A stretch of DNA of 64,000 nt from Limnomonas spitsbergensis. Its lineage: Eukaryota > Chlorophyta > Chlorophyceae > Chlamydomonadales. Where the stretch lies: contig JAYJMM010000097.1 in assembly GCA_037349105.1 (NCBI GenBank), positions 2,638,001-2,702,000 of the forward strand, in the 5' to 3' direction. The notes under the pieces are model-generated. The model did not search any database. It saw only the letters and a list, made by a program, of their open reading frames with translations, and was not told the DNA's origin. A program made the position numbers and the translations under genes. Positions 1 through 64,000 of this stretch are shown piece by piece (within the stretch, counting starts at the first letter, position 1; each line of letters begins with the position of its first letter).

Positions 1-84
1 CCCTTTTCCTTCATCCCATGCTTCATATCTTAAGGCTTACGTTCCACCATGTTCCACCCTATGATTGCGCACCCCGCAGAGAGT

Positions 85-240
85 GGCACGTAAGGTCTAA
101 CCAGCACATAATTATTGTGTATCATCATCAAAGTGCTGCCTTTGCTGGGGTGCACTATTGCCACCTGCTCCATATGGCCCCTTTTCAACAATGCCCCCCC
201 AACTATACACGCACACACAGAGAGCGGCACCGAAGCTCAG
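85..240 (+). repeat. Degenerate copy of the acceptor edge of the first Rh exon
   Basis: Bases 85-170 (accagcacataattattgtg and onward) resemble 241-300 (accagcgcacaattcctgtg and onward). Both encode a version of CIIxxLxxLGCTxAT. The downstream copy is continuous with the coding exon, so the upstream one is read as an intronic decoy duplicate. Confidence 0.6.
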
Positions 241-3200
241 ACCAGCGCACAATTCCTGTGCATCATCAACACCCTTTTGTCGCTGCTGGGCTGTACTGTC
301 GCGACGTTTGCCACCAGTGCCTTCGTCGGCCGCGGGCGTATGAGTATGATGCATGTCCAGAACTCTACGTTGGCTGGCGGCGTGGCGATGGGGGCGGCCT
401 GCACGCTGAAGCTTACGCCTGGAGGCGCTGTGCTGGTCGGATCCGTGTCAGGCGTGCTGAGGTACAGGACATGGCAGGGCAGGAGATGACAGGGCAGGGC
501 AGGGCAGGGCAGGGCAGGGCAGGACAGGAAAGGGCAGGAAAGGACAGGAAAGGACAGGAAAGGACAGGAAAGGACAGGAAAGGACAGGACAGGACAGGAC
601 AGGACAGGACAGGACAGGACAGGACAGGACAGGACAGGACAGGACAGGGGACAGGGGACAGGGGACAGGGGACAGGGGACAGGGGACAGGGGACAGGGGA
701 CAGGGGACAGGGGACAGGGGACAGGGGACAGGGGACAGGGGACAGGGGACAGGGGACAGGGGACAGGGGACAGGGGACAGGGGACAGGGGACAGGGGACA
801 GGGGACAGGGGACAGGGGACAGGGGACAGGGGACAGGGGACAGGGGACAGGGGACAGGGGACAGGGGACAGGGGACAGGGGACAGGGGACAGGGGACAGG
901 GGACAGGGGACAGGGGACAGGGGACAGGGGACAGGGGACAGGGGACAGGGGACAGGGGACAGGGGACAGGGGACAGGGGACAGGGGACAGGGGACAGGGG
1001 ACAGGGGACAGGGGACAGGGGACAGGGGACAGGGGACAGGGGACAGGGGACAGGGGACAGGGGACAGGGGACAGGGGACAGGACAGGGGACAGGACAGGA
1101 CAGGGGACAGGACAGGACAGGGGACAGGACAGGACAGGGGACGGGACAGGACAGGACAGGACAGGACAGGACAGGACAGGACAGGACAGGACAGGACAGG
1201 ACAGGACAGGACAGGACAGGACAGGACAGGACAGGACAGGACAGGACAGGACAGGACAGGGGACAGGACAGGGGACAGGACAGGGGACAGGACAGGGGAC
1301 AGGACAGGGGACAGGACAGGGGACAGGACAGGGGACAGGACAGGGGACAGGACAGGGGACAGGACAGGGGACAGGACAGGGGACAGGACAGGGGACAGGA
1401 CAGGGGACAGGACAGGGGACAGGACAGGGGACAGGACAGGGGACAGGACAGGGGACAGGGGACAGGACAGGGGACAGGACAGGGGACAGGGGACAGGACA
1501 GGGGACAGGACAGGGGACAGGACAGGGGACAGGACAGGGGACAGGGGACAGGACAGGGGACAGGACAGGACAGGGGACAGGACAGGACAGGGGACAGGAC
1601 AGGACAGGACAGGACAGGACAGGACAGGACAGGGGACAGGACAGGACAGGACAGGGGACAGGACAGGGGACAGGACAGGACAGGACAGGGGACAGGACAG
1701 GACAGGGGACAGGACAGGGGACGGGACAGGACAGGGGACGGGACAGGACAGGGGACAGGACAGGGGACAGGACAGGGGACAGGACAGGGGACAGGACAGG
1801 ACAGGGGACAGGACAGGGGACAGGACAGGACAGGGGACAGGACAGGGGAGAGGACAGGACAGGGGGCAGGACAGGGGACAGGACAGGACAGGGGACAGGA
1901 CAGGGGACAGGACAGGACAGGACAGGACAGGGGACAGGACAGGGGACAGGACAGGACAGGGGACAGGACAGGGGACAGGACAGGACAGGGGACAGGACAG
2001 GGGACAGGACAGGACAGGGGACAGGACAGGGGACAGGACAGGACAGGGGACAGGACCGGACAGGGGACAGGACCGGACAGGGGACAGGACAGGACAGGGG
2101 ACAGGACAGGACAGGACAGGGGACAGGACAGGACAGGGGACAGGACAGGACAGGGGACAGGACAGGACAGGGGACAGGACAGGACAGGGGACAGGACAGG
2201 ACAGGGGACAGGACAGGACAGGGGACAGGACAGGACAGGGGACAGGACAGGACAGGGGACAGGACAGGACAGGGGACAGGACAGGACAGGACAGGGGACA
2301 GGACAGGACAGGACAGGACAGGGGACAGGACAGGGGGGGACAGGACAGGGGGGGACAGGACAGGGGGGGACAGGACAGGGGGGGACAGGACAGGGGGGGA
2401 CAGGACAGGGGGGGACAGGACAGGGGGGGACAGGACAGGGGGGGACAGGACAGGGGGGGACAGGACAGGGGGGGACAGGACAGGGGGGGACAGGACAGGG
2501 GGGGACAGGACAGGGGGGGACAGGACAGGGGGGGACAGGACAGGGGGGGACAGGACGGGGGGGACAGGACAGGGGGGGACAGGACAGGGGGGGACAGGAC
2601 AGGGGGGGACAGGACAGGGGGGGGCAGGACAGGGGGGGACAGGACAGGGGGGGACAGGACAGGGGGGGACAGGACAGGGGGGGACAGGACAGGGGGGGAC
2701 AGGACAGGGGGGGACAGGACAGGGGGGGACAGGACAGGGGGGGACAGGACAGGGGGGGACAGGACAGGGGGGGACAGGACAGGGGGGGACAGGACAGGGG
2801 GGGACAGGACAGGGGGGGACAGGACAGGGGGGGACAGGACAGGGGGGGACAGGATAGGGGGGGACAGGACAGGGGGGGACAGGACAGGGGGGGGCAGGAC
2901 AGGGGGGGGCAGGACAGGGGGGGACAGGACAGGGGGGGACAGGACAGGGGGGGACAGGACAGGGGGGGACAGGACAGGGGGGGACAGGACAGGGGGGGAC
3001 AGGACAGGGGGGGACAGGACAGGGGGGGACAGGACAGGGGGGGACAGGACAGGGGGGGACAGGACAGGGGGGGACAGGACAGGGGGGGACAGGACAGGGG
3101 GGGACAGGACAGGGGGGGACAGGACAGGGGGGGACAGGACAGGGGGGGACAGGACAGGGGGGGACAGGACAGGGGGGGACAGGACAGGGGGGGACAGGAC

Positions 3201-6200
3201 AGGGGGGGACAGGACAGGGGGGGACAGGACAGGGGGGGACAGGACAGGGGGGGACAGGACAGGGGGGGACAGGACAGGGGGGGAAGGGGGGGGCGGAAGG
3301 GGGAGGCGGAAGGGGGGGGCGGAAGGGGGGGGCGGAAGGGGGGGGCGGAAGGGGGGGGCGGAAGGGGGGGGCGGAAGGGGGGGGCGGAAGGGGGGGGCGG
3401 AAGGGGCGGGCGGAAGGGGCGGGCGGAAGGGGCGGGCGGAAGGGGCGGGCGGAAGGGGCGGGCGGAAGGTGCGGCAGCAGGGGGCAGCAGGGGGGCGGAA
3501 GGGGCGGAAGGGGCGGCAGCAGGTAGCAGCAGGGGGCGGAAGGGGCGGCAGCAGGGGGCAGCAGGGGGCGGAAGGGGCGGCAGCAGGGGGCGGAAGGGGC
3601 GGCAGCAGGTAGCAGCAGGGGGCGGAAGGGGCGGCAGCAAGGGGCAGCAGGGGGCGGAAGGGGTGGAAGGGGCGGAAGGGGCGGAAGGGGGGGAAGGGGG
3701 GGGAGGGGGGGAAGGGGGGGAAGGGGAAGGGGGAGGGGAAGGGCAGGACAGGGCTGGGCAGAGGTATGCAGGGTGGCCTTAACCCCCAACCCTGTTCAAA
3801 TTTAAAATGCATGATACAATCCAACATTTGAATCCCCTCTGCCTTGCCTTTTACAGTGTTTGTGGCTACACCTACACAACGCCCTTCCTCGATCGAGTCA
3901 TGGGCCTCGGGGACACCTGCGGCATTCACAACCTGCATGGCATGCCGGCTATCCTCGGTGGCTTCGTTGCCGGCTTTGCGGCGCTCGGCCAGAGCAGGTA
4001 CGGAATGCCAAGCATGGAGCATCCATGCATGGGTGAAACACCATCGCAAACATGGCATGCCTGCAAATCTCAAGCACAAGGTGCTGCCTTGTTTGCCCGG
4101 CTTTGCAACACTTGGCCAGAGCAGGACAAGCAGGTACGTAAATGCCATGCATGCAGCATGAATGTCTGATATACTATCACAAACACGGCATGCCGGCTTT
4201 GCAGGGCTGGTCCAGAGCAGGTACGTAAATGCGTGTGTTTCACACCATCACAAAATGGCATGCCTGCATGCCTCAGGCATGACGTGTTGCCAGCTTTGCA
4301 ACATTTGGCTAGAGCAGGTATGTAAATGCCAAACATGGGGCATGGAGCATGATCTGTGCGGTACAACATCACACAAATAGCATGCCTGACAACCTCTGGC
4401 ATGCCGTGCTGCCTTCTTGCTGGCTCCCGAGCATTTGGTCAGAGCATGTGTGATACTTATACTTGGTTTTGCTAATCTAGCGATCTGATGGGTTCATGGT
4501 TTAGGCAACGCTCCTTCCCAGCACTTCGCTAGATCAGGTGTGTGACATCTGTAGTTCTGTACATGATGTTGCTAGTTTAGATATCTATTGGGTCCGGTTA
4601 TGTGACCACCTGTGCATAGCCCATGGCACTGCTGAGCTGAGTGTCTAGCTGTTAGATAGGTGTGCGGTTCTTGTTTCTCTATGAATAATCCCCGTCCCTC
4701 TGTCATCTATCCTCTGTCTCTGTCCCCGAGCCTCCTCTGTCCCAACTTTCCGTCACACTCCCCCTCTTCTGTCCCTGTCTCTCGACCAGCCTGTGCTCAT
4801 CCCTCTCAAGGTACCAGCCGGTTGCCTGTCTCAGATCATCCATGTAGCAGTCAACATACATGCCTTTGGCCGCCTGCGGCCATCCCTCGCTCGGCGATTC
4901 TCTTCCCTCGGTCATCCCTTTTTCATAATACCCCTTCTGCCCCTGTTCCTTTCTGACCTGATCATCTTTCAGCGCCCAGCTGCCCCTCAAAGGATGGCCG
5001 CCTCTCCTACCTGCGGCCAACCTTCTGTTACCCTATCCCTCCGTCATAATCCATCTTCTAGCATCCCCTCACCTAGCGGAGGATCACCGAATGGTGGGGT
5101 AGCAGGTTTCGGTGAGAGGAACACCTTTGGTGAGAGAGGCAGAAAAAAGAGAACAATACCAAAATTTCGGGGGCTTACCAAACGTGTTCCTCCACTTGGT
5201 GTCCCTCCATCATCATCCATTTTCTGTCCCTTTCTCCCTGATGACGTCTGCAGCGAGTATCTCATGTATGAGACGGGCCGCGAGCAGCTGGGCTGGCAGG
5301 TGGTGGCCATGGTGGTCACGCTCGTCATTGCAATCTCAAGTAAGCCGTCATGCTAACCACACCTTAGGGCCCGTACAAAAAAAAATGCAATCACACTGCT
5401 ATGATGCGCGCTTGTGAGTGGGGCTAGGATGGCCTTCACAGGGCGGTCACACCCGTGATTGCAATCTCAAGTAAGCCCCTTTTCTGGCTGTAAGGTAGCA
5501 GATTAATGCAAATATCGCTACGCTGGCATTATGCGCATTTATAAGTGGGGATAGTATGGCCTAAGGATGGGGTCGCAGTCTAGGACGCACGACCAAGCTA
5601 TGCATAATCGAGAAGTGAACATAATGTCAGGCCCTAGTGAGCGGGGTGTGGTTGGCCACAACACCCTATCTGATTTGGTGTGGACTACTACTGCTTTGGA
5701 AGGGTAGTACCAGGTGAGGTGATGCGGGCCCCGAATCTGCATCAGGGCTTAGCTTTATGACAAGGACCTAGGGTTTGGTAATGTAGCTACTGGAGCGTCT
5801 AGGTCAGAGCCCTCTAGGGTATAGGGTTCAGTTTAGTCTGCTATCCTGCCTTGTGTGTTGTGACACTTGGCAACTGACCACCAGAGTGAGGATTCGAACA
5901 AATGTATCGGAAATAGCTACTAGCTTATTATTCCTTGCTCAGCCAGTCTGGCCAGCAGAAGAGAGATTTTAGGAAAATCTTGTGTGCGTGCCACATCGGT
6001 GATTCTAACTTCACCCACCTCGTTTGACCTCACTTGTCCAGGTGGCCTGATTGTGGGCTTCGTGCTGTCCGTGCCCTCCCCTGCTCCTAGCCTCGTGCCT
6101 GCTGAGATGTTTAGCGACAATGTCTGGTGAGTGGAGGACACTTTTAATTGAAGGCATTGTGTTAAGTATTAAGATATTGTATATTAAAAGAGCCCCCCAC

Positions 6201-7363: not shown

Positions 7364-7483
7364 GAAAGAGGGGGTAGGGGGTGGCTGAGGGAGGAGGGAA
7401 GAGTTGATGAAGGACAAGGAAAGCAGGCTTCTTGGTCTCATCCCCCTCCTGTTGGGGTGTGAGACCAAGTTACGGAAGAAATT

Positions 7484-7637
7484 GAGTCGGGACTGAAGTT
7501 GCATCCTTATCTAAGCCTGTCCATGGATCTGAGTGAGTCGGGACTGAAGTTGCATCCTTATCTAAGCATGTCCATGGATCTGAGTGAGTCGGGACTGAAG
7601 TTGCATCCTTATCTAAGCCTGTCCATGGATCTGAGTG
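7484..7637 (+). repeat. Three tandem copies of a 51-bp unit
   Basis: Units start at 7484, 7535 and 7586 with GAGTCGGGACTGAAGTTGCA and end with GTCCATGGATCTGAGT; copies are nearly identical. They lie just downstream of the Rh stop codon, so they may be in its 3' UTR. Confidence 0.9.
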
Positions 7638-40065: not shown

Positions 40066-40079
40066 GTACCGTCATTAAC

Positions 40080-41547: not shown

Positions 41548-42502
41548 ATGTCTTTCGCCGTGTCCCGCCGTGCCACTGTCTCTTGCCGCCAGGCATCTAA
41601 GACATCACCCATCTCGCGCTCGCCCAGGCGCGTCGTATCTGTCAGGGCAGAGACACCAAGCACCCCTCCCAACGTGAGTGACGACGAACGTCACACTATT
41701 TCGTGACTTAACATTCATAATTGGTGATTAACCCCCCTTCCCCTCCGCGTTGTCTGCAATTGCTGTTGAACCATTGGATGTAGCTCGGACCTCACTCTGG
41801 GCCATCCGGACACACCTCTGATGCGCATATTAAGTTTCTCACACATCCATCTCACACTGTCGACCGCAGGATGTGAAGCCCGCTGCCACACCTGTGACTG
41901 CGTCTACTCCTTCGCCAGCTGCACCCCCTCCCCCTCCCCCAGCTCCTGTCGCACCGGCGGCCCCTTCCCTGCAGAGTGAGTTTGAATCAGTTCGTAACGC
42001 TTCGATCACGCGGCAGCGTACAAAGCGCTTAATACTGGCAGAGTCACGGGTGGAATTTCGCTGAATTCACTATCGAGTTGATGGACATATTGTGATTTCC
42101 TTTACACACACTCAGCCGAGGGCAATACATACCTCTTGGCACTCTCTGACCCTCGTTCTGTCCCGTACCTGCCGCGCAGCTGCCATGGGATTTTCTGGAG
42201 CTGGCCCTGAGACCATTAACGGTCGTCTTGCTATGCTCGGCTTCGTCGCGGCCGTTGGTCGCGAGCTTGCCAGTGGCAGCACCCTCCTGTCTCAGCTTGA
42301 CTCCACTGTGGTCCCTGTCGTCATCACCTTCGCAATCTTCTCTGCAGCCAGCTTGTACACCATTGTCAACGGTGGCAAGGCCCAGCCATCAGACTTCTGG
42401 AAGCCTGAGGCGGAGATGCTCAACGGAAGGGCAGCTATGTTGGGCCTGGTAGCAATGGCTGTGACTGAGGTAGCCACTGGGTCTGCAGTCTTCACGATTT
42501 AA
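41548..42502 (+). CDS. ELIP: Early light-induced protein (ELIP-like), plastid-targeted
   Basis: Three-helix member of the light-harvesting-like family; such proteins sit in thylakoids and protect against excess light by binding chlorophyll and carotenoid. Exons 41548-41673, 41870-41975 and 42180-42502 (TAA) give 184 residues. Residues 1-42 form a transit peptide rich in Ser/Arg/Ala (SFAVSRRATVSCRQASK). Next is a Pro/Ala linker (APPPPPPAPVAPAAP). Helix 1 contains PETINGRLAMLGFVAA and helix 3 contains EMLNGRAAMLGLVAMA, each with the E-x-x-N-x-R chlorophyll-binding motif; the middle helix is VVPVVITFAIFSAASLYTIV. Introns are only about 200 bp and show no exon-edge duplication, unlike the neighbouring genes. 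Light or stress control is known for the family but not visible here. Confidence 0.92.
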
Positions 42503-48460: not shown

Positions 48461-48499
48461 GCAAGGCACAGCCAGGGGCCAGGGCCTGAGGGCCAGTGC

Positions 48500-50589: not shown

Positions 50590-53500
50590 ATGATGGGTGT
50601 CGGTGTGAAATCCAGCGCCTCATGGCCCCCACAGACCTCCCGCCCTGAAGCAGCCCAGGAGCCTGACCCTGCTGTATCATCATCGGGGGCAACAGAGGCT
50701 GCAATGATATCCGCACCAGAGGAGCCCCTCCAAGCTGCCCCTGCCATGCATGCGGTGCATGAAGGGAGCGAGTCGGAGGGGCGCGACGCTGACACAGACG
50801 TTGAAGACGACCCCCCCAGGCTCAGCCCCTGCGCCCCCATGCAGCGTCAGCATGGCTCTGAAACCGCCGCTGCCGCCGCTGCCGCTGTGCATCCCACTTT
50901 CACTTTCCCCACGACTCCCTCCGAGCCTCTGCCGCAGCTCCATCCCGACCAGCAGGGCAGCGGCAGCCCCAAATCTCCGACGTCGCTCCGCGGCATCGCA
51001 TCAGATAGCCACAGGCAGTTCTCCACCGTCTCCTCCTCCGAGTCCTCAACGAGCCTGCTGGCTATCGCAGCGCAACAGCAGAACCAGCACCAGCAGCAGC
51101 ACCAGCAGCAGCCCCTCAAGTCAGGCTGGATGCTCAAGCTGACGAAGATCTGCTCCAACACGCTGGTGCGGCGCCGGATCGATCTCATGACCGGCGGGAA
51201 GTTCAGCACCTACCATTGCGGCGCTCTGGGCCACAAGAACTCGTGGTACCTGGACCGGTGAGAGATGGGCTGGGCTGGGATGGTCGCAAGAAGAACGAAA
51301 ACTACGCCCCGCGGGAGACAGGGGAAACAGGGTGGCATGGGCCGAGGCCTCGTCCGCACTGTTACCGCTGGGCTAGTCGGAGGTACCTGTCATGTGGCTG
51401 ATCGCGCACTGATGAAGGGTTCAGATACAAGAACTCGTGCTATTTGCACCAATGAGTACCGGGCTCGGATGGGCGCAAGAAAGAAAGAAACTACGCCCCA
51501 CAGGGGTGTGGAGGTTTAGGAAACAGTGCAGCATGGGCCGAGGCAGCTTCCGCACTGTTTCCATTGGGATGCTCACAGATACCTGTCTTGTGGCTGATCG
51601 CGCAAGGTTGACATGTCCAGCCGGGAGACCTTATGGCACTTGGACCGGTCAGTGCTGGGCTGGGATGGTCGCATGGAGAAAGAATTGTGTACGTCATTGC
51701 ACGTGTGAGAACTCAGGACTGGAAGAAGCTCTATGTGGCATTGTTTAGCGGGAGATTAGGGAGCTTCATGCATAAGCTCCATATGTCCGTAGAAGAGGTT
51801 TCATATAAGAGGTTGCTGTCTGAGAACACACCGTGGAAGTTTATCTTTTTCTTTACAGATGTGGGAAACCCAGGACTGGAGTAAGCACTGTGTGGCATTC
51901 TGAAGTGGAGGATTAGGGATCATGGAGTGTGTCACATGCAAATATGAGCACGGAGCAAGGATTAAAGGTGCATGGAATGCATGCACTTATGGCCAGTAAA
52001 AGGTGCATGGAATGCATGCACTTATGGCCAGTAAAAGGTGCATGGAATGCATGCACTTATGGCCAGTAAAAGGTGCATGGAATGCATGCACTTATGGCCA
52101 GTAAAAGGTGCATGGAATGCATGCACTTATGGCCAGTAAAAGGTGCATGGAATGCATGCACTTATGGCCAGTAAAAGGTGCATGGAATGCATGCACTTAT
52201 GGCCAGTAAAAGGTGCATGGAATGCATGCACTTATGGCCAGTAAAAGGTGCATGGAATGCATGCACTTATGGCCAGTAAAAGGTGCATGGAATGCATGCA
52301 CTTATGGCCAGTAAAAGGTGCATGGAATGCATGCACTTATGGCCAGTAAAAGGTGCATGGAATGCATGCACTTATGGCCAGTAAAAGGTGCATGGAATGC
52401 ATGCACTTATGGCCAGTAAAAGGTGCATGGAATGCATGCACTTATGGCCAGTAAAAGGTGCATGGAATGCATGCACTTATGGCCAGTAAAAGGTGCATGG
52501 AATGCATGCACTTATGGCCAGACCGATCGGGCACAACCTCCTGTGTGTGTTCCCCAGTGGCTGGATGCAGAGGCCACTCCGAGCACTGTGTGGGCACATG
52601 ACAAGGTCTGGTCTCCACTGCCGGTTTTGTTGATGTTTTTCCGATGCGAAAGGGATACCCTGATGTCTTTCAAGACATCAAGATTTGATCGATTTTCAAA
52701 GGATGAGTATTTCTGTATTAGTGGTAGGCATCCAAAGTCACCTCTCCACACCCTGTTAACCCCAATTATGAAAGAAGATGCGCTTAATCTCACACTCAAT
52801 ACCCGTTTCCTTTAACCTCCTGCACTGTAGAGACTCGAGAGCAAATGTCCGTGACCCGAAGCTACCTGACTCTCCTGACGCCACCTGATTCTCCTGAACC
52901 CTAAACCCGCAGACCTAAGTGCGGTCACCATTTTTGGGTGCTGGAACCTTTGAAACCAAACAAACAAATAAGGGCCTGCACCCTGGAGTTTGTTGATTGG
53001 CCACTTTTAAGTGCTGAAGAAAACGTACGGCAAAAGTTATATACACTGGAAGCGAGCTAATTGTGCAGCTTTAGATGTACCATGATCAAGAGTAATGTAC
53101 AGTGAACGTCAAAGGTCGGGCGAGTGACAAAGGTTGGACGCGTGATGAAGGCTAGCCCAAACAGAGGATGTAAACGCCCGATCCCTTCTCTAGCCCACCA
53201 AGCGTATTTTAGGTGCACTGCTAATGGTGTTCACTTCCTGGATTTCAGGCGATGTACATTGGAGCCTAAGAGCGAAATGGACATCACAGAAGTTCAGACC
53301 AAGAAGGAGCGCGTCGCATCCGCGGAGCATCAGCAGCGCCAGAAGTGGACGATTGCCAACTTGATGGAGGGCATGGAGGGGGAAAAGAAGGAGCTGTATG
53401 TGGTGAGCAGCCGGGGGGCAGATGTGAAGATTAGAATGAGCGTTTTCTTTGCAGCTTAATTGTCACTGGGAAGCTTCAGGAAGGGATATGGAGGGGGTAG

Positions 53501-56500
53501 AAGAAGGAACTGAGGGTGGTGTGGTCGCGGAGAAGTAGAGGAGGAGTTGTGTTTTGTGTTGAGCCCTGTTGGTCATCAAGTGATGGAGGGCATTGAGGGG
53601 AAGAAGCCGGAGCTGTATGTGGCGAGCCAGGCGGGCGGGCGGCTTGGGAGCGAAGGACAGGCTGGCTAAAGAGTTCAGCCTGCACAAGGATGTAGGGTTC
53701 GCGGTTTCGTCTCATGTTTTGGTTTTGAGTGATCATGGTTGAGGGTTTGGTTATATGTTCTGTTAGGGCTCAGGGTTTGGGGCTGGTGCTAGGGCTCCTG
53801 GTTTGGGGTTGGTTTAAGTTTTAGGTTTGGATATAGAGATCAGGGTTTCACGAGGTGCAGCGCATGACGCCATGTCTTACAAAAAGAGAGTATCTTCGTC
53901 AGTACTTTGCTAACGTCACATCGTCGAAGACTTAACTGCCGTTGCCGCTCCCTCCTAAATGTGCGGATCCCCTCCCCTCCTTCTCCCCCCTCCACTTCCT
54001 CTCAATCCTCCCCGTTTTCCCACATATTGACTCTCCTCGTCCCTCCCGTCTCTTCCCCTCCCTCCCAGTACATGTTTTCCATCAAGTGGCCCAATATCTA
54101 CTGGTCCAAGGGGTACAGCTCCTTCACGTTTGCATCTGGTGAGCGCTGAGGAACAAAGTAAATTGTCAAGGCCTGGTTCAGGGTTTAGTCTACAGGCAGG
54201 GTTACAGGTCTGAAATAGGGTCAACGATTCCCATTGGGCAAGTCAAGGATTCAGCCCCTTCAAGTTTGACCCTGGTAAGCGCCTGGAAAACAAGTTAAGA
54301 CAATTTAGGGTTAAATGCTTGTGGCAATTCTGGGATCCAGATCTGTCACATTTGGCATCTGGTCGGTGTCGGGGACAGAGAAATATACGGAGTAGGGTTT
54401 AGGACTCACGTCTAGAGAGTCAGGGTGAACAGCTCCTTCACGCTCGGATCTGGGAAGCATTGAGGGAAGCATTGGGGAGCATTGGGGGAAGCATTGGGGA
54501 GCATTGAGGGAAGCATTGAGGGAAGCATTGAGGGAAGCATTGAGGGAAGCATTGGGGGAAGCATTGGGGAGCATTGGGGTCTAGGATGTATGGAGCATTG
54601 AGGGAAGCATTGAGGGAAGCATTGAGGGAAGCATTGAGGGAAGCATTGAGGGAAGCATTGGGGAGCATTGGGGTCTAGGATGTATGTTTTTCAGCTTAGG
54701 GCCCAGACCCTTCACGTCCGCATGTTAGGCGTTGAGGAAGGAGGTGTCTGGATGAAGGCGTTAAGGATTGACATTTGGGGCCTGAGGGGTGCAGCTCCTT
54801 TTGCTTGCCTCCGCTAAGCGCTGAGGCAGGGGGGGAAATGTTTGGGGGAAAGGTGTGGGGCTGGCACTTGGCCAGCACTGATAAGGGAAAGTGTCCAGGA
54901 TTCTGCTTAGGGTTAATGGTTAACCCTTAACCCTAATCACGTGACCAGCACTGACAAGGGGAAGTGTTCAGGGTTCTAATTTAAGGTTTAGGGTTAAACG
55001 CTGAACCCTAAACACTTGGCCAGCGCTGACGAGGGGAAGTGTTCAGGGTTCTGGTTCTGCTCGTGATTAGTGAAGCCTGAAAGCGCTTGCCTGGGACCTC
55101 ACTTTATCCGCGCCAACGTATTGACCACTGCCTTGCACTTCGTCAACCTTGCAGCACTGCACTTTAATTCGCCTTCCTGACGCTGATGTTAGAAATGTAT
55201 TTGTTCTTGTTTTATCTCTGTCGATGCTTGACTGATGGACTTGTGGAGGAGATCGGAGCCTGGCATGTGGCCAGAGCAGACTGAATCGGGGAGCTGGCTT
55301 CAACCCCCCCTCGCACTGGATCGAAAAGTTTTCACCAGACTCTTCATTGGACAAAGAGTCCCTGATGGAGACTCGATCCTGGCACATGGCCAGGTTCATT
55401 GACTGGCTCGTTACTCGATTTAGTTGTGCTCACTAGACTCATTGGGACCAACACAACCCCTGGATGCCACTCGAGCCTGGCACATTGCTACACTACAGCA
55501 GATTCAATTGCCAAGCTGACTTGACCACTGCAGCGCAATCAATCTAACTGGGCTCACTTCACTCTTTGTTTGACCCACAGAGTCCCTGGAGGAGACCCGA
55601 GCCTGGCACATCGCCATCGCCGGATCGATCGCTGAGCTGGCGGCGCGCAAGGTGCATCGCAGCATCACAGACGACGGGCAATTCCAATCTTGTATGGCCT
55701 CCAAGCAGTTTGAAAGGTCAAGCCAGGTAATCAACGGGCAAGCACGAGATCGGTGACTACAAGATGAATAGAAGAATAGCAGGGTTAGCGGTGGCTGCTT
55801 TCCAGCTTCGTGTGCACACTATGAGTGGACCAAAACGTTCTAGCGCCACAACCGTCACTGAAATTGAAAACAAATATGGTTATTAGCTGTTGTTTGCCTG
55901 CCTTGTGTGCGATCTGTCAGAGCCAGCAGCAGGATGGAGAGGCCCACTCCTAATAAATATCTTCAAAAACAGACATTTTAAAACATTTTTGAACATGTTG
56001 CGTTGGATCTGCTTTGTAGCCCGCCAGCAGCACGATGGATGTGCCCTCCTGGAGCAACCAAGACTCCGAGACCATATCTGGATCTCCCTCGTCCTTCTTT
56101 GCCGGGCGGCGCTCCTACGTGAGTTTGTCCTCCCTCTGGGCATATGAATGATGTATCCATGTCCCCCCTCAGGGCATAATTGTTTTCTCGAATCATTTCA
56201 TGAATGATGTATTCAAGTCCTCCCTCTGGGCATGAGTCGCATGAAGTACAGCAGCATGGCCTGCATGGAGGAACACTTGGAACGCATGGAGTGCATGGCT
56301 GACTGGATGTGATGCCATGCATGGCCGCATCAAACATGTGGACCGCATAGAATGCATGGTGTCACGCACAGCCTGCAAGGAGGAATACATGGTGTGCATG
56401 GAGCGCATGACTGACTGTTTTTTTTTACACCTATGGCTGCATCCAGCTTGTGGACGGCGTGCAATGCATGGCATGAGGCACGGTATGCATCATGGACCGA

Positions 56501-59500
56501 ATGGAGTGCATAGATTCCATGCATTGCTTGCATGCTGCCATACATGGCATGCATGCAAGCAAGCCATGACATGCATTGCTTGCATGCAAGGCATGCATGG
56601 TTAGCTTCTTCAACTTGATTTGCAACCTTGCAACATGGCAACCTGGTACTAAATGCCTTCACGGTGCTGTCAAGGCCTTTGGGATACCACAGCAGGACGT
56701 ATCGCACCCTGAGTCGGATCCCCATCGCGTCTCTGTGGGAGACCAGCTGGGAGCGGTAAAGCAGGCGGGGAGCGGGGGAGCATGTGCGGAGGGCAGGCGG
56801 GTTGCTGGGCAGCAGGCAGGAGCCAGCGGCTGCCCAGTGGGTGGTACGCCCCCCCCCGCCAAGGGCCGCGGCGATGTGGCAGATGTGGGTTTCCTGGACG
56901 CGGAATCCGAAGCCTTTGATGATGAAGGAGAAGGCTCGGGCGTAAGCAGGTGTGTAACTGCCGGGCAGGTGTGTAACCGCCAGCTTGATGACTGTTACGG
57001 CTGGGAGCAGGTGTGTAACTGCCAGACAGGTGTGTAAGCGCAAGCTTGATGACTGTAATGGCCGGGAGCAGGTGTGTACCCGCTGAATAGGTGTGTCACC
57101 TCCAGTGTGAGGACTGAAACGGCTGGGAGCAGGCATATAACTGCCAGCCTAAGCACTGCAAGTGCTGGGAACTGGTGTGCTCCTATTGGGAGCTGGTGTG
57201 TAACTGCTGGCAGCAAGTGTGTGTTCCATAACTGCCGGGAGCTGGTTTGTAACTGCCAGTTTAGAGGTCTGTCCTTTAGAAAGGGACGAAGTAACTAGTT
57301 TAGGCAATTGCCGGGATACAGGGACCCGGCAGGCCCAATTCAGAGTACCGTAGAATCTGCTAATCCCCTTGCATAAGCGGGTTTCTGGGTTCCAGTTCAA
57401 ATCAGGAGACTCGGCAGAGAAGCTGCGGAGACTCCGTGGCCGCTAACAGCGGCCTAAACGGTTCTGTCGCGTATACGGTAATATACTGTGACACAGCCTT
57501 TATTTGTCCAATCACTTTATTTCCCACTCTTCCACCTTGTTTTTCCTGCCCCCTTGTGTTTGTATCTTTCTTTCCTCCGGGGGGGGGGGGGGGGGGGCAG
57601 GTGGGGGGACAGCAGCAAGGGGGAGGGGGAGCAGGTGGGGGGACAGCAGCAGGGGGGGGGCAGGTGGGGGACAACAGCAAGGGGGGGGGGGGGGCAGGTG
57701 GGGGGACAGCAGCAAGGGGGGGGGGGGGGAGCAGGTGGGGGCACAGCAGCAAGGGGGAGGGGGGGCAGGTGGGGGGACAGCAGCAAGGGGCAGGGGGAGC
57801 AGGTGGGGGGGCAGTAGCCAAAGGGAGGGGGAGCAGGTGGGGGCACAGTAGCCAGGGGGGGGGGCATTACAGTAGTTTAAATTATGTCGGCATAGTGGGG
57901 AGACGGCAAGGGTACTGAAAGGGCTGTTCTGTGATAGTGCGATGTGATTTCCTTCGTGGATTAGGCTTGGCAAGGAGGTTTGTGGTTCATGAGAAACTTA
58001 GGACCTCTGGGACAAAAACGCGGAACACAGAGCACCGTGGTATGGCCCTCTGGTGCAAAAGCCATCGAGGGACTGACACAGTCTCCCTCTCTCATCTACT
58101 CCTCCCCGTCCTCCCCATCCTGCTCTTCCACCCTCTCTTTATTTGGCCCCCCTTCCACCCTCATTCTCCACCACTTCGTCCTCCCCAGCCCTCGCCCATC
58201 CCCACACCCTCTGTGCAACTGCAGCGATGAGTTCGAAGGTTGTGACGGCCTAGAGGATGAGATGGAGCCGCTGTCACGTGATCGCTGGGTGCCGTACAAG
58301 CAGGTGCGTGTTTGAATCTAACTGCTTTACAGTCTGATCCGGAAATGTCTGTTTGACTTGTCCTTGACGACGCTGTCCGTAGGGCCTCATTCCACCAGAG
58401 CCTTTTGTTACGCCTAATGGGATTAGGCGTCACGAGATCGATTCCAGGTGCCAAGCAGTAATCTTTTTGAATATGGAAAGAGTGCAGCGACGCCTACTTT
58501 TTAAATATCAGGGGGCATCGCATGTAGGTGCTGCTAATCGTCCCAGTGCCACGCCTAATGTGCCACGTCAGACACTCCCCCCTCATGCTCACTACCGCAG
58601 ACACGCTCCGATCTCCTTGATCTCGTACTGCGTGATGCATTTCCCGCTGTGGATCGTTGCAACGCATTGCTCATTCGCAGTCATGGACTGGCGGAATCTT
58701 TGCGATTCAAACCTGCCACATGTTTGCTCTTAGATAACATTGAATAAGCACAGTGAGCGTTGAGCGAGCGCACTGTGCAGAGACATTTTAAGCTTAGAGA
58801 AGGGAGTCCGAGTCTAGGGATGAAATATGACGTAAGGATTCAAACGACATTTTGGGTTTTGGTGGAAAAGTTTTTCTGGTGGAATTCGACGCCAAAAATG
58901 AGCGACCTCAAAGGGCGTGTCGTCGCAAAATATTCGAGTCAGATTAGGCGTCGCTTCTCGAGTGGAATGAGGCCCGTTGTTGACGTATTGGGGGATTCGC
59001 TCCATCACACCACTCACCAGCTCACTTACCACGTTTGGGTGACGTCCCTGTCTGCCCAGATGAAACGCTCCTAGGTTGTGTAGTTGTGTACCTTCTTAAT
59101 TGTGGAGTGGTGTCCAACTCCTTTGCACCATGCCGCGTGATTAGGGCTCAACCTCTGCACTATGAGGATCATTCCCACGCCTATCTTCTGTGGTTGTGTG
59201 CCGGTTGCTTGCCCAGCGAAAGGAAACTTTTTTTCTCACTCCCTGCCCTAGTTTATTTTGTGCCCGAGCTGGTTCTTGGGTTTCTGTCCCATGCATCAAA
59301 TGTGATGCCCCGCTAGACTGTGTAACCTTCACTTGAGTCCAACAGTTGGCTGTCTACCGTCTGCATGACAGCTCAGCAGAGTAAAACTGTTACTGTTACA
59401 CTTTCACACTTCTTATTCCCAGACAAATGGAAGATCTGTGTACCATCCGGATGAGAGCTGATACAAATCACACTGCAGCACCCCCACTATATTACACTGT

Positions 59501-62500
59501 CACACTTATTATCATCTTAAATATTAGTGGAATATCTGTGTACCATCTGGATGAGAGCACGTCTGAATCACACTGTCACACTCTCACACCATCACCCTTC
59601 CGCACTGCCACACTGACCACCCGCAGACTAATGGCATAGCTGTCTACCATCTGGATGAGAGTGGGGGCGGGGCGGACAATGGAACAGGCTCTGCTGACTC
59701 AGCATCTGGGCGCGCCAGGGGGGACAACGCCACCGGCAGGTGAACAGACGGTCGAGGGTGCTGGCTCGTGCATAAGTGTTAGGGTGAAGGCGGCTATGGG
59801 GTAGGGGTGTGGCAGCTTTGGGGAGCGCAAGACATGGTTTGGGGCTACAGTTTAGGCCCGCTGACTCATCATGTGGGCGCTCCAGGGGGCCAAGGCCGCT
59901 GGCAGGTGCAGTGCGGAAAAGGGCTCAGGGCTTAGGCTGGTTGGCAGAGGATGATGGTTAAGGCCCGCTGACTCATCGTCTGTATGCTCGAGAGGGGGCA
60001 GCGCTGCTGGCAGATGAAATTTGGTGAAGGGCTAAGGGCTTAGGCTGGTTGGCAGGGGTTGGTGATTTAGGCTGCTGACTCATCATCTGTATGCACGAGA
60101 GGGGGCAGTGCTGCTAGTCAGGGAGAGGGCGCTGTGGGGTAAAGGGTTGATGCTTGTGCAAAAGGGGTAGGGTTAAGGCTTGTGCACATGGGGTAGGGGT
60201 TGAGGGTTAAGGCTTGCGCACAATGGGTAGGGGTTAAGGGTTAAGGCTTGTGCACAGGGGTAGGGGTAGGGGTTTAGGCTTGTGCACAAGGGGTAGGGGT
60301 TTAGACTTGGCTCTGGGGCGCTCCAGCGGGGGCAACACTGCCAGCAGGTGAGAAGATGCCACAAGGTTCAGGGGCCCAGGCTGGATACAAGTTCATCCTC
60401 ATCAAGGCTTTGGGGGGCACCAACAGAGGCGATGTCGCTATCAGCTGGTAGACTAGCTTGCTGCTGAGGGTGGCGGGGACTGCATGATCTCAGCCGGTGC
60501 GCGTACTCATGGTGCAGGGTTCGCGTCTGAAACCTCGTTTGGACCCTGAGCCTTACAGAGGCGATGCTGCCAGCAGCTGGCAGGCTAGCTTGCTGCTGAG
60601 GGTGGCGGGGACTGCATAACCTCAGCTGATGCGCGTGCTTATGGTTCAGGGTTGGCGTCTGAAACCTCGTCTGAGCCCTGAACCTTACAGAGGCGGCCTG
60701 GGTGGGGACCATGTGGTGTCCGCCAATGCGGGTGTTAATGGTTAAGGGTTAACAGCTGTGACCTTTCACAAAGCCTGCATGAGGCAGGTCGGGCGGGGAC
60801 TAGACAATGTCCACTGATGTTGATAGTCTAGGGGTGACAACTGCAACCTCTCTCAAACCCTCAACACTACAGAGGCGGCCTGGGCGGGGATTACATGGTG
60901 TCTGCCGACGTGCGTGGCTCGCCTGCGGCTGTGCTAGCTGTGCTGCTGGACGGCTCGGCCAACACCACCATCCTGGGCCCTGCCTCTACAGTGGAGGTGC
61001 TGGAGAAGGAGCAACAAGGGGATACACACAGGACGGTGAGAAAGCCTGACAGTCAGATAGCCAGGTAGCCAGGTAGCTAGATGGCCAGATGGCTAGATTC
61101 TTGCTGGAAGTGGAGGCAATCGAGCTGGATCAGTGCTGAAGGAGCAACCCACAGGACGCCGTGGAATACAGATTTGTGCTTGAAATCGTGTCAGTCAAGG
61201 CCAGTTTGCGCTTGAAATCGAGGCAGTTAAGGTGCTTTGCGCTTGAAATCGAGCCAATGGAGGTGGGCGGGCCTGCTGTCAGTAGGGCGCGATTGAGGAG
61301 TGGAGGTGCTTGGGAACGAGCAACAAGGGGTTGCCCACGGGACGGTGATAAATATATATTGGTGCTTGAAAGTGAGGCAACGGAGATGGATGGGTGCTTA
61401 GAATCGAGGACGGTCAAGGTGGATTGTTGCTTTACGTCGAGGCAGTGAATGTGGATCAGTGCTTTGAATTGAAGCAATGGAGCTGAATTGGTGCTGAAAG
61501 TGAGGCAATAGTGGTGGATCAGTGCTTTGAATGGAGGCAGGCAAGTTGGATTTTTGATTTCAATTGGAACAATGGAGCTGCAGTGGCGCTTTAAATCAAG
61601 GCAATCAATGTGGGCTGGCCTGCTGCGCGCACCGCGAGCTGGCGATGAAGCGCCTGGTCCTCAAAATGTTCCGTTCCTTTGTTTTTTTGATTCAGATTTT
61701 ACTTCCTCGGGTTCCTTGCAGGGTTCTGGAGGCACCTGGGTGGGTGGGTCTGCGGTGGGTCTGCTGTGTGGGCTGGTGGTGCTGCGCCTAGCGCTCGAAA
61801 AATGTTTGAAATCTTGTGTATCCTCTTTTAGCCAACAACGCCGCCCCTTGTACTGTTGGGCCGTGGCTGGGCCGTCCTGCTGTGTGCAGTGCGCGAGCTG
61901 ATGGTGGAGCCACTGCTTCCCGCAACTTGTTAACAGCTTGTATATGCTTTTCTTCCAATTGCTGCAGGTGCTGCGCCTTGTCCTTGAGGCCCCTGGCTGT
62001 GCTGGCCTTCTGTGCACACAGTGCAAGCTCGCTTTGCTGCACCTGCGTCCTAGAAGTCATTTAATTTTCTTCCAATTCCTGCAGGTGCTGCGCCTTGTCC
62101 TTGAGGCCCCTGGCTGTGCTGGCCTTCTGTGTGCACAGTGCAAGCTCGCTTTGCTGCACCTGCGTCCTAGAAGTCATTTAATTTTCTTTCAATTCCTGCA
62201 GGTGCTGCGCTTTGTCCTTGAGGCCCCTGGCTGTGCTGGCCTTCTGTGTGCACAGTGCAAGCTCGCTTTGCTGCACCTGCGTCCTAGAAGTCATTTAATT
62301 TTCTTTCAATTCCTGCAGGTGCTGCGCTTTGTCCTTGAGGCCCCTGGATGGGCTGGCCTTCTGTGTGCACCACGTGAGCTGGTGGTGGAGCGCCTGCTGA
62401 AGACCGAAGATAACGTGCATGTGGTGCTTTTCAACAGTGTGGAGGTGCCGCCAGGCCAGATGGTGAGGGATTAGGGTTTGGAGTATGTGGCGAGGGTATG

Positions 62501-64000
62501 AGATATGTTGTGAGGGTGGAGGGTGCATGGTTTGGTTTTGTTCAGTAGCTTGGCAGACCTCCAGGCCAGCCGGTGAGGGTAAAGGGTTGGTGATTACTGG
62601 TGAGGGTGCAGGGTATGTGGTGTGAGGGTTTGCGGTATTTGGTTAGCGTGTAGGTTATGTTGTGAGTGTGGAGGGTGCATGGTGCTGTGCCCAGAGGACA
62701 GCGTGTACGTGATGCTGTATAACAGCAAAGGAGGGTGGCCTGCTGACGCAGCGTCTAGTGCGATGCGGATTTTGTTTTGTCGCCCGAAGCCTTCGGCCAA
62801 AGGGCCAGGCAGGTGTTTCAGTAGCTGTGTTATTTCAGACGTTACAAGGTACGGTATGACTTGTACGGTATAAGTGTATGGCGGTGACAAGATGTACAAT
62901 CATTTCTGACTAAGCGCAGCAAAACGGAGAGAGAATTAATGCCGCGGCTATCCTGATTGTTGGGCCTCTACATGATTTCAATGCCAGGAAAATAATCCTG
63001 AAGAAGTGAAAGATGATTGGTATGAATCGGCCACACTTCTCTCAGATCATGCCTTTGCTGCTCATGTACTGCCTGCTTGTACCGCAGGCTTGTTCTAAGG
63101 ATCTGAAGGGCAGGCGCAGGCTCCGGAGCCTGTACCGCACCCCAGTGCGCGGCAAGGTGCTGGGCACTTATTCGATCGCGCCCATGAGGGGGGAAACGCT
63201 GGAGAGCTCGGAGCGGGCCCTCATCTCGTGCATTATCAAGGTACATGGGATATCTTGGGAAATAGCTCTCTTGGTTGTAGGGTTAAGGGTCAAGGGTTGA
63301 GAATACATACTTTTTGGTTTCAAATAACTGTCGTTGCATTCTGTTCAGCTAGGCTAGCAAGCTTTGAGGGTGAGTTTGTTCGGGGTTGACTCTTTGGAGG
63401 TTTCAGCACCACTTGCAGGATGTGGGGGGTCGGTTGGTTAGAAACCCAGTCCTTGGACCAGGCACTGATCTTCTGTATCAACATGAAGGAGCGCATCTAG
63501 TGGCCAGCTAACAAGCTGGGAGGTTTAGTCTGCTGAAGTACCATCACCTGCGTTGGTATGGGGTTGCAACACCACTTGCAAGACCTGTTCTGCCTGTTGC
63601 TGCCTGCTGTTGCAGTACAGGCGGACCTGCAGGACAGCTGCTGGCTAGGGCCGTTTGCAACATGCCCTGCAACACCCCTTGCAACAACACCAATATCTGT
63701 TGCTGTCTGTTGCAGGTGGATCTGCGAGGGGCCTGCGGAGTCAGCAGCTGGCTGCGGCTGCTCGCAACATGCCCTGCAACATCCCTTGCAACACCACCAA
63801 TATCTGTTGATGTTTGTTGCTGTCTGTTGTAGGTGGATCTGCGAGGGGCCTGTGGAGACAGCAGCTGGCTGCGGCCGTTCGCAACAAGCCCTGCAACACC
63901 CCTTGCAACACCACCAATATCTGTTGCAGGTGGATCTGCGAGGGGCCTGTGGAGACAACAGCTGGCTGCGGCCGTTCTCAGATCTGCTAGGCTGGACCGA
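50590..64000 (+). CDS. EDR2: EDR2-like protein (PH + START lipid-binding), C-terminus cut by window
   Basis: Exons 50590-51257, 53249-53402, 54069-54138, 55581-55726, 56020-56118, 56693-56949, 58225-58303, 59627-59739, 60873-61035, 62319-62462, 63088-63240 and 63930->64000 are GT-AG and in phase, about 705 residues so far. Residues 1-175 are low-complexity. A PH domain starts at about 176 (KSGWMLKL...NSWYLDRRCTLEP) and ends with the invariant Trp in ETRAWHIAIAGSIAEL near 305. A START domain begins near 491 with TNGIAVYHLDES, then GGDYMVSADVRGSPAAVLAV, CAPRELVVERLLKTED plus VHVVLFNSVE, LGTYSIAPMRGE, and ALISCIIKVDLRG. This order is that of plant EDR2 (ENHANCED DISEASE RESISTANCE 2), which adds a DUF1336 domain that would lie to the right. 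The family binds phosphoinositide and lipid at membranes. The PH domain looks short, so one exon may be missing in 51258-53248. Confidence 0.8.
51235..51900 (+). repeat. Donor-edge copies after exon 50590-51257 and ACTACGCCCC elements
   Basis: AAGAACTCGTGGTACCTGGA then CCG|GTGAG and GGGCTGGGATGGTCGCA is echoed at 51430-51480 and 51630-51678 (CTTGGACCGGTCAGTGCTGG, GCTGGGATGGTCGCA). Two ACTACGCCCC elements (51285-51365, 51475-51560) are carried along. A further pair, CCAGGACTGGA / TCAGGACTGGA with GTGTGGCATT and GGATTAGGGA, lies at 51712-51760 and 51870-51925. Confidence 0.75.
51967..52520 (+). repeat. 35-bp minisatellite, about 16 near-identical copies
   Basis: Unit GGTGCATGGAATGCATGCAC + TTATGGCCAGTAAAA, essentially perfect from copy to copy, in the first EDR2-like intron. 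The core GTGCATGGAATGCATGCAC is nearly palindromic. Any open frame through it is spurious. Confidence 0.97.
53335..53640 (+). repeat. Donor-edge copies after exon 53249-53402
   Basis: TGATGGAGGGCATGGAGGGG, AAAAGAAGGAGCTGTATGTG|G and TGAGCAGCCGG recur at 53581-53632 (TGATGGAGGGCATTGAGGGG, AAGAAGCCGGAGCTGTATGT, GGCGAGCCAGG), with a weaker copy at about 53485-53525. Confidence 0.88.
54105..54830 (+). repeat. Six donor-edge copies after exon 54069-54138, with a GGGAAGCATT array
   Basis: ACAGCTCCTTCACGTTTGCA then TCTG|GTGAGCGCTGAGG is echoed near 54250-54293, 54340-54372, 54428-54466, 54705-54740 and 54785-54825. Copies keep CTTCACG/CCTTT, GCATCTG-like text and GxGxTGAGG. Between copies the tail has expanded to a GAGGGAAGCATT minisatellite (54455-54665). 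Confidence 0.88.
55040..55620 (+). repeat. Acceptor-edge copies before exon 55581-55726
   Basis: The true edge CACAG|AGTCCCTGGAGGAGAC then CCGAGCCTGGCACATCGCC is echoed at 55235-55275 (GGAGGAGATCGGAGCCTGGC, ATGTGGCC), 55350-55395 (AAGAGTCCCTGATGGAGACT, CGATCCTGGCACATGGCC) and 55455-55495 (CCCCTGGATGCCACTCGAGC, CTGGCACATTGC). Each is preceded by TCACTAGACTC- or TCACCAGACTC-like intron text. The open frames keep RAWH/HxxA sense only in the last copy. Confidence 0.88.
56940..57265 (+). repeat. Donor-edge CAGGTGTGTAAC array after exon 56693-56949
   Basis: AGCAG|GTGTGTAACTGCC recurs about eight times (GGGCAGGTGTGTAACCGCC, GGAGCAGGTGTGTAACTGCC, CTGGTGTGTAACTGCTGG) with a GACTGTTACGGCTGGGAGCA tail. 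Confidence 0.85.
57575..57870 (+). repeat. G-run minisatellite (GGGGCAGGTGGGGGGACAGC)
   Basis: Units of about 30-40 bp with runs of 6-16 G and AGCAGCAAGGGGG, in the intron 56950-58224. No coding sense. Confidence 0.93.
58384..58972. mobile_element. MITE-like element with GGGCCTCATTCCAC termini
   Basis: Perfect 14-bp terminal inverted repeats (GGGCCTCATTCCAC at the left, GTGGAATGAGGCCC at the right, about 590 bp apart). Subterminal ACGCCTAAT/ATTAGGCGT boxes occur at about 58411, 58426, 58548 and 58944 in both orientations, as expected for transposase-binding sites. No transposase frame inside. It lies in the EDR2-like intron 58304-59626. A target-site duplication is not obvious (flanks GTA and GTT). 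Confidence 0.82.
59335..59665 (+). repeat. Four acceptor-edge copies before exon 59627-59739
   Basis: True edge CGCAG|ACTAATGGCATAGCTG then TCTACCATCTGGATGAGAG at 59622-59661. Copies at about 59337 (ACAGTTGGCTGTCTACCGTC), 59420 (CCAGACAAATGGAAGATCTG, TGTACCATCCGGATGAGAG) and 59525 (TTAGTGGAATATCTGTGTAC, CATCTGGATGAGAG). Each is followed by AATCACACTG-like text. Confidence 0.92.
59690..60355 (+). repeat. Five donor-edge copies after exon 59627-59739
   Basis: GCTGACTCAGCATCTGGGCG, CGCCAGGGGGGACAACGCCA, CCGGCAG|GTGAAC is followed by copies ending at about 59904 (GGCAG|GTGCAG), 60013 (GGCAG|ATGAAA, donor lost), 60116 and 60347 (AGCAG|GTGAGA). The tail of the third and fourth has expanded to a GCTTGTGCACAAGGGGTAGG array (60145-60305). 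Confidence 0.9.
60425..60905 (+). repeat. Acceptor-edge copies before exon 60873-61035
   Basis: TACAG|AGGCGGCCTGGGCGGGGA is preceded by copies near 60688 (TTACAGAGGCGGCCTGGGTG, GGGACCATGTGGTGTCCGCC), 60555 (TTACAGAGGCGATGCTGCC), 60425 (CAACAGAGGCGATGTCGC) and a remnant near 60785. Two copies carry an inserted CTGGCAGGCTAGCTTGCTGC unit (60439-60470 and 60575-60600). Confidence 0.88.
61000..61345 (+). repeat. Donor-edge copies after exon 60873-61035
   Basis: GGAGGTGCTGGAGAAGGAGC, AACAAGGGGATACACACAGG, ACG|GTGAGA recurs at 61302-61350 (GGAGGTGCTTGGGAACGAGC, AACAAGGGGTTGCCCACGGG, ACGGTGATA) and in part at 61130-61160. Confidence 0.87.
61935..62400 (+). repeat. 117-bp tandem array of an acceptor edge (four acceptors)
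   Basis: AG acceptors at 61967, 62084, 62201 and 62318: exact 117-bp period. Each unit is intron end (TTTAATTTTCTTCCAATTCC, TGCAG) plus exon start (GTGCTGCGCCTTGTCCTTGA, GGCCCCTGGCTGTGCTGGCC, TTCTGTGTGCAC). Only the fourth continues into coding sequence (exon 62319-62462). More diverged relatives lie at 61625-61665 and 61720-61800. Confidence 0.97.
62440..62740 (+). repeat. Donor-edge copies after exon 62319-62462
   Basis: GCCGCCAGGCCAGATG|GTGA and GGATTAGGGTTTGGAGTATG are followed by GACCTCCAGGCCAGCCGGTG + AGGGTAAAGGGTTGG at 62557-62590, and by a partial exon copy (GCGTGTACGTGATGCTGTAT, AACAGCAAAGGAGG) at 62700-62738. Confidence 0.75.
63590..63970 (+). repeat. Four acceptor-edge copies before the last exon in the window
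   Basis: CACCAATATCTGTTGCAG|GT and GGATCTGCGAGGGGCCTGTG, GAGACAACAGCTGGCTGCGG (from 63930) is preceded by copies at about 63832, 63714 and 63616, each with its own AG and each encoding VDLRGACG...SWLR or a worn form of it. The GCAACATGCCCTGCAACACC linker also repeats. Confidence 0.95.

Follow-up and report, generated by a model that had tools for sequence, protein, structure and literature searches.

Apart from transposon insertion, the lengthening of introns is poorly quantified. The subject of this work is a set of introns in the snow alga Limnomonas spitsbergensis that contain degenerate copies of the DNA spanning their own splice junctions, as noticed in a stretch of 64,000 nucleotides referred to throughout as the window (contig JAYJMM010000097.1, positions 2,638,001 to 2,702,000). 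The genome of this alga is described as having a mean intron length of 788 bp, a GC content of 54.15% and unclassified repeats amounting to 22.8% of its sequence (PMC11228838). The closest parallels come from Chlamydomonas reinhardtii and Volvox carteri, in which tandem repeats are densest in introns and commoner near junctions (G3 2013, PMC3887541). What Limnomonas shares with these is the green-algal setting, intronic tandem repeats at the highest density and more of them near junctions. The repeats of that study have units of 1-50 bp lying inside introns, and a role in splicing is suggested for them; in Limnomonas, unlike this, the median distance to the first copy is about 110 bp, the copied DNA includes the exon edge and the splice site, and no bias towards junctions emerges in a matched test. 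The original prediction, made from the window alone, regarded the repeated copying of junctions as a process not yet named, which was too strong a statement, since an excess of tandem repeats close to the borders between introns and exons has been published, most notably for Chlamydomonas and Volvox.

Several more distant cases bear on the same kind of event. In the potato RdRp gene (PMC4974935), a duplication of the same type spans an intron end, its splice site and an exon start, but as described it is a single case that made an extra intron via a cryptic donor, whereas in Limnomonas duplications across a border occur often, within introns already present. Human duplicated genes likewise have repeat arrays at exon-intron borders, which are kept or spliced out (PMC2812944); the account covers 27 intron modifications in segmental duplications, discussed as novel introns, and its relevant passages include neither an intron-wide duplication field nor a test against random intron points. 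Tandem duplication is an established source of introns (Hellsten et al. 2011, as cited in PMC3443670) and there, as here, it supplies intron DNA; however, the process as cited is the gain of new introns through AGGT, whereas the donor and acceptor windows of Limnomonas introns are not copies of each other. The human UBC gene also consists of tandem units with AGGT-type (dual-specific) splice sites that are partly spliced out (PMC10809524), but those units are reported as coding and used in variable numbers, whereas the exon-derived parts of the Limnomonas copies decay as non-coding DNA. Among the papers listed in our searches of the open-licence literature, outside which most subscription journals lie, none treated duplication across junctions as a general way in which introns grow. 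Judged against those papers, the apparently new elements are a quantified and near-constant unique core, growth by local copies, and a rate of copying at exon borders equal to that at any intron point.

We propose, with a probability of roughly 0.8, that these introns have been lengthened by local head-to-tail duplication that is blind to exon borders, that dynein junctions are copied not measurably more than other intron points, and that the rule by which the outermost copy is the one continuous with the exon is survivorship—that part of the original prediction stands as an expected leftover of selection and not as a separate rule. The evidence was gathered from dynein heavy chain genes beyond the window, the genome searched comprising 260,226,709 bases in 124 contigs. 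A Pfam AAA_6 search returned 89 matches, grouped by us into 16 dynein heavy chain genes, and introns were located in 22 genomic stretches of 10 kb with 120 dynein proteins and a purpose-written spliced protein-to-DNA aligner. This gave 263 aligned introns. The outer-arm genes (alpha, beta and gamma), whose relatives are 65-94% identical, supplied 97 of them and the other loci (38-52%) 166. The protein aligned to the gamma gene (P0010, 4426 aa, 91-94% identical), on a contig of 13,676 bases, looks transcript-derived. A quality filter on flanking alignment score, exon length and intron size (below 5 kb) passed 195 introns, of which 190 have a length of 150 bp or more; it replaced an earlier identity-based filter, which had kept 41 inner-arm introns, because the translated exons of 10 loci read without stops. 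Unfiltered introns were used for the repeat-density survey (300 bp) and the paralog comparison.

Junction-spanning copies are frequent in this sample. With a 100-nt query and a score of at least 24, 55 of the 190 introns contain a copy of their own junction (donor 32, acceptor 34), against 0/190 in the reverse-complement control and 10/950 for length-matched introns of other loci, all 10 in the longest class (10/185). The proportion rises from 1/55 below 300 bp through 31/98 at 300-600 bp to 23/37 at 600 bp and above; hence, the claim that most long introns are so built holds for the long dynein introns and not for the sample overall. Its extension to unrelated genes is borne out by the Rh transporter of the window and by dyneins, on many contigs, and at a cut-off of 22 at least one case occurs in 19 of the 22 loci. 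A looser count (180-nt query, cut-off 18) found 66/190 own copies, but with 12/190 in reverse complement and 58/950 in foreign introns (35/185 at 600 bp and above) it was too leaky in the controls and was therefore dropped in favor of the 100-nt query and cut-off 24; a junction-copy figure of 70/190 and the copy counts used below for identity, distance and overhang belong to the loose cut-off. In the unfiltered outer-arm set of 97 introns, the last 40 exon nucleotides match their own intron at a score of at least 16 in 7/96 cases and the first 40 in 5/97, compared with 0/92 and 0/93 for exon-interior 40-mers and about 0.1% of 1920 and 0.0% of 1940 for the same edges set against other introns.

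The position of the junction itself was weighed against pseudo-junctions, i.e. random points inside the intron searched to one side only, which make a fair control because edge windows can be copied to one side only. In sufficiently long introns (158 in the main run, 81-181 and 103-158 in variant runs), donors were copied at a rate of 0.209 versus 0.194 at random points, a ratio of 1.07 (95% confidence interval (CI) 0.74-1.54), and acceptors at 0.146 versus 0.210, a ratio of 0.69 (0.45-0.99), both as per-intron averages with n=158. Across 12 settings of window, cut-off and distance, the donor ratio ran from 0.44 to 1.26 and the acceptor ratio from 0.66 to 1.02, with no CI above 1. The role of anchor that the original prediction gave to the junction thus failed in the comparison with random intron positions. 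Junction copying tracks the interior repeat density of the intron in question (donor rho 0.17, p 0.03; acceptor rho 0.27, p 0.0005), and when pooled over windows random intron points are copied still more often (0.33-0.56), because long repeat-rich introns supply more windows. The junction arrays look like the edge of an intron-wide duplication field. The two kinds of site also differ, in that acceptors fall below random points (0.69) and donors do not. The mild acceptor deficit, significant in some settings and not in others, would be compatible with a first-come rule, the inner acceptor being transcribed first.

The duplication field is densest inside introns and fades into exons. A copy in the same intron was found for 1017 of 2636 intron-interior 30-mers (38.6%), for 20.5% at intron starts and 22.6% at intron ends, for 31/190 (16.3%) of those made up of the last exon nucleotides and 25/187 (13.4%) of those made up of the first; 30 nt deeper into the exon, these values are 6.4% and 4.9%, and at 150 nt they are 0/116 and 0/119, the copy rate declining across the last 60-90 nt of exons. 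Only 46 of the 2636 interior 30-mers match in reverse complement. The survey over all aligned parts of the 22 loci gives the same order: a same-strand copy within 300 bp exists for 43.1% of the 4291 windows in introns, for 7.9% of the 906 at exon edges and for 0/625 deep in exons. Of the 961 windows that lie beyond the aligned portion of the genes and combine intronic, exonic and possibly intergenic DNA, 32.4% have such a copy. Copies in inverted orientation at this range amount to 0.7% in introns and at most 1.1% in any class, and mononucleotide-shuffled DNA of the window gave 0/297; the copies are arranged head-to-tail in the same orientation. Intron length correlates with the repeated fraction (rho 0.61, p 3e-21), which averages 5% at 100-200 bp, 27% at 400-600 bp and 61% above 1 kb. 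Chance matches also increase with length, but their reverse-complement rate stays as low as 3.2% (40/1232) in introns of at least 600 bp. What is left after removal of the repeats measures 381, 408 and 399 bp (medians) in the three length bins above 400 bp; that is, the unique core of these introns levels off near 400 bp and the rest is repeated. The repeat share is a lower bound, because copies too old to recognize count as unique.

The mutational step could be ordinary tandem duplication, through slippage or microhomology-mediated repair. Such a duplication across a donor would leave the exon edge and intron start in two copies: were the outer donor used, the mRNA would be unchanged and a spare exon edge would lie inside the intron, and were the inner donor used, a piece would be inserted, often out of frame. 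Acceptors would present the mirror image. A duplication straddling the border would then be nearly neutral, its spare exon edge ending inside the intron, whereas exon-internal duplications would alter the protein and be purged by selection; the lack of deep-exon duplications (0/625) would be explained in this way. The observed pattern therefore calls for nothing beyond a high local duplication rate and purifying selection. Protein alignment suggests that the outermost sites are the ones used in splicing. It is conceivable, although we consider it rather doubtful, that exon-intron borders form no barrier to duplication in a genome where the DNA of long introns is for the most part copied locally, and that the spliceosome regularly settles on the outermost site among many nearly perfect competitors (the 5'-most donor and the 3'-most acceptor), with introns taking in exon-edge copies at no cost and lengthening by the copying of nearby DNA, exon edges among it.

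If the duplicating process were itself tied to splice sites, for instance through transcription-coupled breaks or an RNA intermediate, the same junction would be recopied repeatedly. Such anchoring could account for how common spanning copies are (55/190), for arrays in which one junction recurs at least eight times, and for the enrichment of tandem repeats near intron ends reported for two green algae (PMC3887541). However, the ratios to random points oppose its strong form, with no CI above 1 in any of the 12 settings; the exon overhang of the copies is spread over 6-100 nt with no preferred length seen; and repeats are denser inside introns than at junctions, with 32% of windows outside the aligned gene part also repeated. 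We therefore hold anchoring to be unlikely. The first copy is found at a median of 109 bp from donors and 112.5 bp from acceptors, usually about 60-250 bp away, and the predicted inward divergence of copies receives weak support: the rank correlation of identity with distance is negative in 10 of 11 arrays with at least three copies, counted at the loose cut-off, and mostly weak. The original prediction also proposed decoy sites that buffer splicing errors. The corresponding explanation, that spare splice sites are kept by selection as decoys buffering or regulating splicing, draws on the good appearance that 46/79 donor copies and 55/84 acceptor copies still have as splice sites at the loose cut-off. 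The dinucleotides themselves nevertheless show no special protection—GT is retained at 0.853 versus 0.82-0.89 in the flanks, and AG at 0.892 versus 0.80-0.90—and the spacing of copies follows no frame rule, while their number varies between close paralogs. Selected decoys are accordingly a very unlikely account, and the proposal is not supported.

The inner copies could also be alternative or duplicated exons, as some units are multiples of three, e.g. an 84-bp array in locus L039. However, each copy takes only 6-100 nt of exon edge, and 83 of the 88 indels found in exon-derived sequence shift the reading frame. Over 133 copies, exon-derived mismatches at codon positions 1, 2 and 3 occur at 0.118, 0.101 and 0.204, i.e. 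about 1:1:2, as opposed to 24:10:117 in true paralogous exons; a 1:1:2 pattern is to be expected if substitutions in the exon are largely confined to third positions and those in the copy are not, positions 1 and 2 thus changing as in a neutral copy. Given these mismatches and the frame-breaking indels, the copies behave as non-coding DNA, and their reading as ordinary alternative exons, which the original prediction had left standing as a way in which it might be wrong, becomes more improbable even than that as decoys. We place at the same low level the Rogers model, in which whole introns are created by tandem duplication of exonic AGGT and the repeats would be remnants of that birth. The donor consensus CAG/GTGAG does resemble the acceptor CAG/GT, but within any one intron the donor window is unlike the acceptor window, the two matching in 0/190 cases at a score of at least 16 (control 1/1900) and in 1/190 at 14 or more (control 4/1900), and the single intron presence/absence difference that was followed up, between loci L025 and L036, is a loss. 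Least credible of all is an artefact of long-read assembly in repeats: the assembly was indeed made from PacBio continuous long reads (CLR; PMC11228838), but most copies are only about 70-90% identical with differing spacings and deep exons are free of them; stutter is disfavored because it would yield near-identical copies and would not spare exons.

Local duplication blind to borders would be expected to alter copy number between related genes, and junction-copy number differs at 27 of 34 intron positions shared by paralogs (six locus pairs, cut-off 22, copy numbers scored up to 15). In the pair L025 and L036, which are non-outer-arm dynein genes with 96% identical proteins, it differs at five of seven common positions; at one acceptor L036 has 11 copies and L025 two, and at the donor of another intron one locus has four copies and the other none. 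The intron L036:1914-2167, absent from L025, was considered as a recent gain and rejected, since six other paralogs have an intron at the same exact place, which points to loss in L025; of the ten further dynein loci compared at this position, those six were joined by two with an intron nearby, one with none and one in which the motif was not found. As a further observation, a 3.1-kb intron (L035:624-3722) has at least 15 acceptor-side copies and its paralogous 502-bp intron in L031 has none.

A number of points weigh against the account in terms of border-blind duplication. All 190 introns belong to 16 genes of a single family, and the foreign-intron control is not zero in long introns at cut-off 24 (10/185), although the remaining foreign matches may be homologous introns of paralogous genes. 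In the pseudo-junction runs, the 50-nt settings put donors at 1.22-1.26, with intervals including 1, leaving room for a modest preference for donors, at most about 1.9-fold. At 30 nt and the strictest cut-off, donor copies that are nearly identical are too few (0.44-0.45, with an interval of 0.14-0.81 for 0.44), which leaves room for selection against young donor copies. Whole-distribution tests on the outer-arm set are weak, with like medians and a signal confined to the tail: for the 40-nt donor edge, p is 0.013 versus other introns and 0.11 versus exon interior, and for the acceptor edge 0.30 and 0.56. The young simple duplications, 14 in number and with extra matching of 4-13 bp in six, are too few to establish a mutational mechanism. 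The paralog comparison is without a false-positive control and reuses loci, such that its pairs overlap and are not independent.

The account of border-blind duplication offers a simple and testable picture of intron growth, with a unique core whose median is near 400 bp, locally copied DNA added to it, and exon edges as bystanders. Published IsoSeq and RNA-seq data for Limnomonas, listed in the genome paper, would make it directly testable (PMC11228838). As many copies still look like good sites, and as the candidate donors or acceptors of some introns number at least eight and are nearly identical, these introns amount to natural experiments in splice-site competition. They also carry a warning for annotation: exon-like and splice-like sequence inside introns may consist of dead copies.

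In the window, self-comparison with blastn and the repeat finder TRF recovers same-strand tandem copies at the places where they had been predicted, for example 3970-4064 against 4097-4197 (71% identity), 19421-19867 against 19503-19949 (95%) and 61948-62253 against 62065-62370 (98%). The dynein genes served to train the codon bias and the weight matrices for splice sites by which candidate junctions were refined and ranked, a scoring without a false-positive control of its own. By this measure, at least one junction-spanning copy accompanies each of the 17 sites named in the prediction (9/9 on the 5' side and 8/8 on the 3' side), with best local scores from 23 to 96; at the stricter cut-off of 24 used for the dyneins 16 pass, the donor at 15511 falling short with a score of 23. 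Exon calls depend on the same codon bias and matrices except in the Rh/ammonium transporter gene (Pfam PF00909, E 3.7e-7). Coding contrast across the chosen junctions is clear (above 0.7 bits per codon) at nine of the 17, weak (0.3-0.45) at 15511, 20113, 22211 and 62319, and none or reversed at 19490, 59627, 59740 and 63930.

The sites that follow are all assigned to the forward (+) strand. The first array (3998-4545) is hosted by the Rh/ammonium transporter gene, whose exon ends at 3997 and whose donor at 3998 is followed by donor-spanning copies with GT at 4134, 4221 and 4318. The next donor, absent from the earlier list and likely of the same gene, has its GT at 5340 and a spanning copy at 5471 (5308-5477). 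A likely upstream intron of this gene, so assigned from the Rh reading frame, covers 464-3750 and is filled by a 3.3-kb minisatellite of ACAGG-type, GGGGACAGG and later GGGGGGGACAGGACA-type units, which starts beside a donor-like GAGGTACAGG and shows extreme strand asymmetry (GC skew 0.55 and AT skew 0.77 in 2001-4000). Further along are candidate donors at 14206 (array 14185-14640, spanning copies at 14306 and 14514) and, with its weak contrast, at 15511 (15485-15725, copies at 15614 and 15709), followed by a candidate acceptor with an exon from 16239 and upstream copies at 15980 and elsewhere (15835-16290). This last site and that at 63930 are second-ranked candidates, chosen as the outermost copy or for their match to the AG of the prediction; the top-ranked alternatives, 16309 and 63833, also have copies. 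An 82-bp tandem array with a CAG/GTGCGA-type motif in its units occupies 19421-20036, where the exon-intron call is uncertain for want of coding contrast; its part 19421-19985, the one array compared with the whole genome for the dispersal of near-identical intron sequence over many genes that marks introner elements, matched itself alone in a search that skips simple repeats. Beyond it are a candidate acceptor with an exon from 20113 (20040-20135, copy at 20053), a candidate donor at 22211 (22185-22800, copies at 22363, 22523, 22622 and 22779), both of weak contrast, a candidate acceptor with an exon from 23979 (23620-24010, copies at 23756 and 23633) and a candidate donor at 24324 (24285-25260, copies at 24499, 24594 and 24679, others being weak).

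The second half of the window holds candidate donors at 37584 (37560-37765, copies at 37625 and 37715) and 54139 (54105-54830, copies at 54275, 54362, 54453, 54725 and 54814 with scores of 21-26), and a candidate acceptor with an exon from 55581 (55040-55620, copies at 55455 and 55239). Two sites without coding contrast lie close together, a candidate acceptor with an exon from 59627 (59335-59665, copies at 59523 and 59423) and a candidate donor at 59740 (59690-60355, copies at 59906, 60127 and 60348). Candidate acceptors then follow with exons from 60873 (60425-60905, copy at 60691), from 62319 (61935-62400, a 117-bp unit with weak coding contrast and copies at 62202, 62085 and 61968 of 93-98% identity) and from 63930 (63590-63970, without coding contrast, copies at 63833, 63716 and 63604 of 97%, 93% and 75% identity).

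TRF also finds arrays touching no listed junction, at 21058-21634, 26112-26469 and 51964-52521, and in six of the 32 2-kb bins of the window no more than 1% of the 30-mers are copied nearby. The array at 51964-52521, made up of 15.9 copies of a 35-bp unit with 100% identity among them, is likely very young. That at 21058-21634 consists of about 44 copies of the 13-bp unit GGGATCAGGTATT, many of them with a splice-like CAGGTA, and contains 36 of the 82 CAGGTA motifs of the window, for which 28.6 are expected by chance. Neither Rfam families nor, under the bacterial code of ARAGORN, tRNAs were detected in the window. Pfam searches of 20 of its open reading frames gave two matches that reach the Pfam cut-off: one is the ammonium transporter, and the other (PF00504, E 4.5e-11) is a chlorophyll a/b-binding domain protein at 42065-42499. 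From its resemblance, we take the latter to be possibly an early light-inducible protein.

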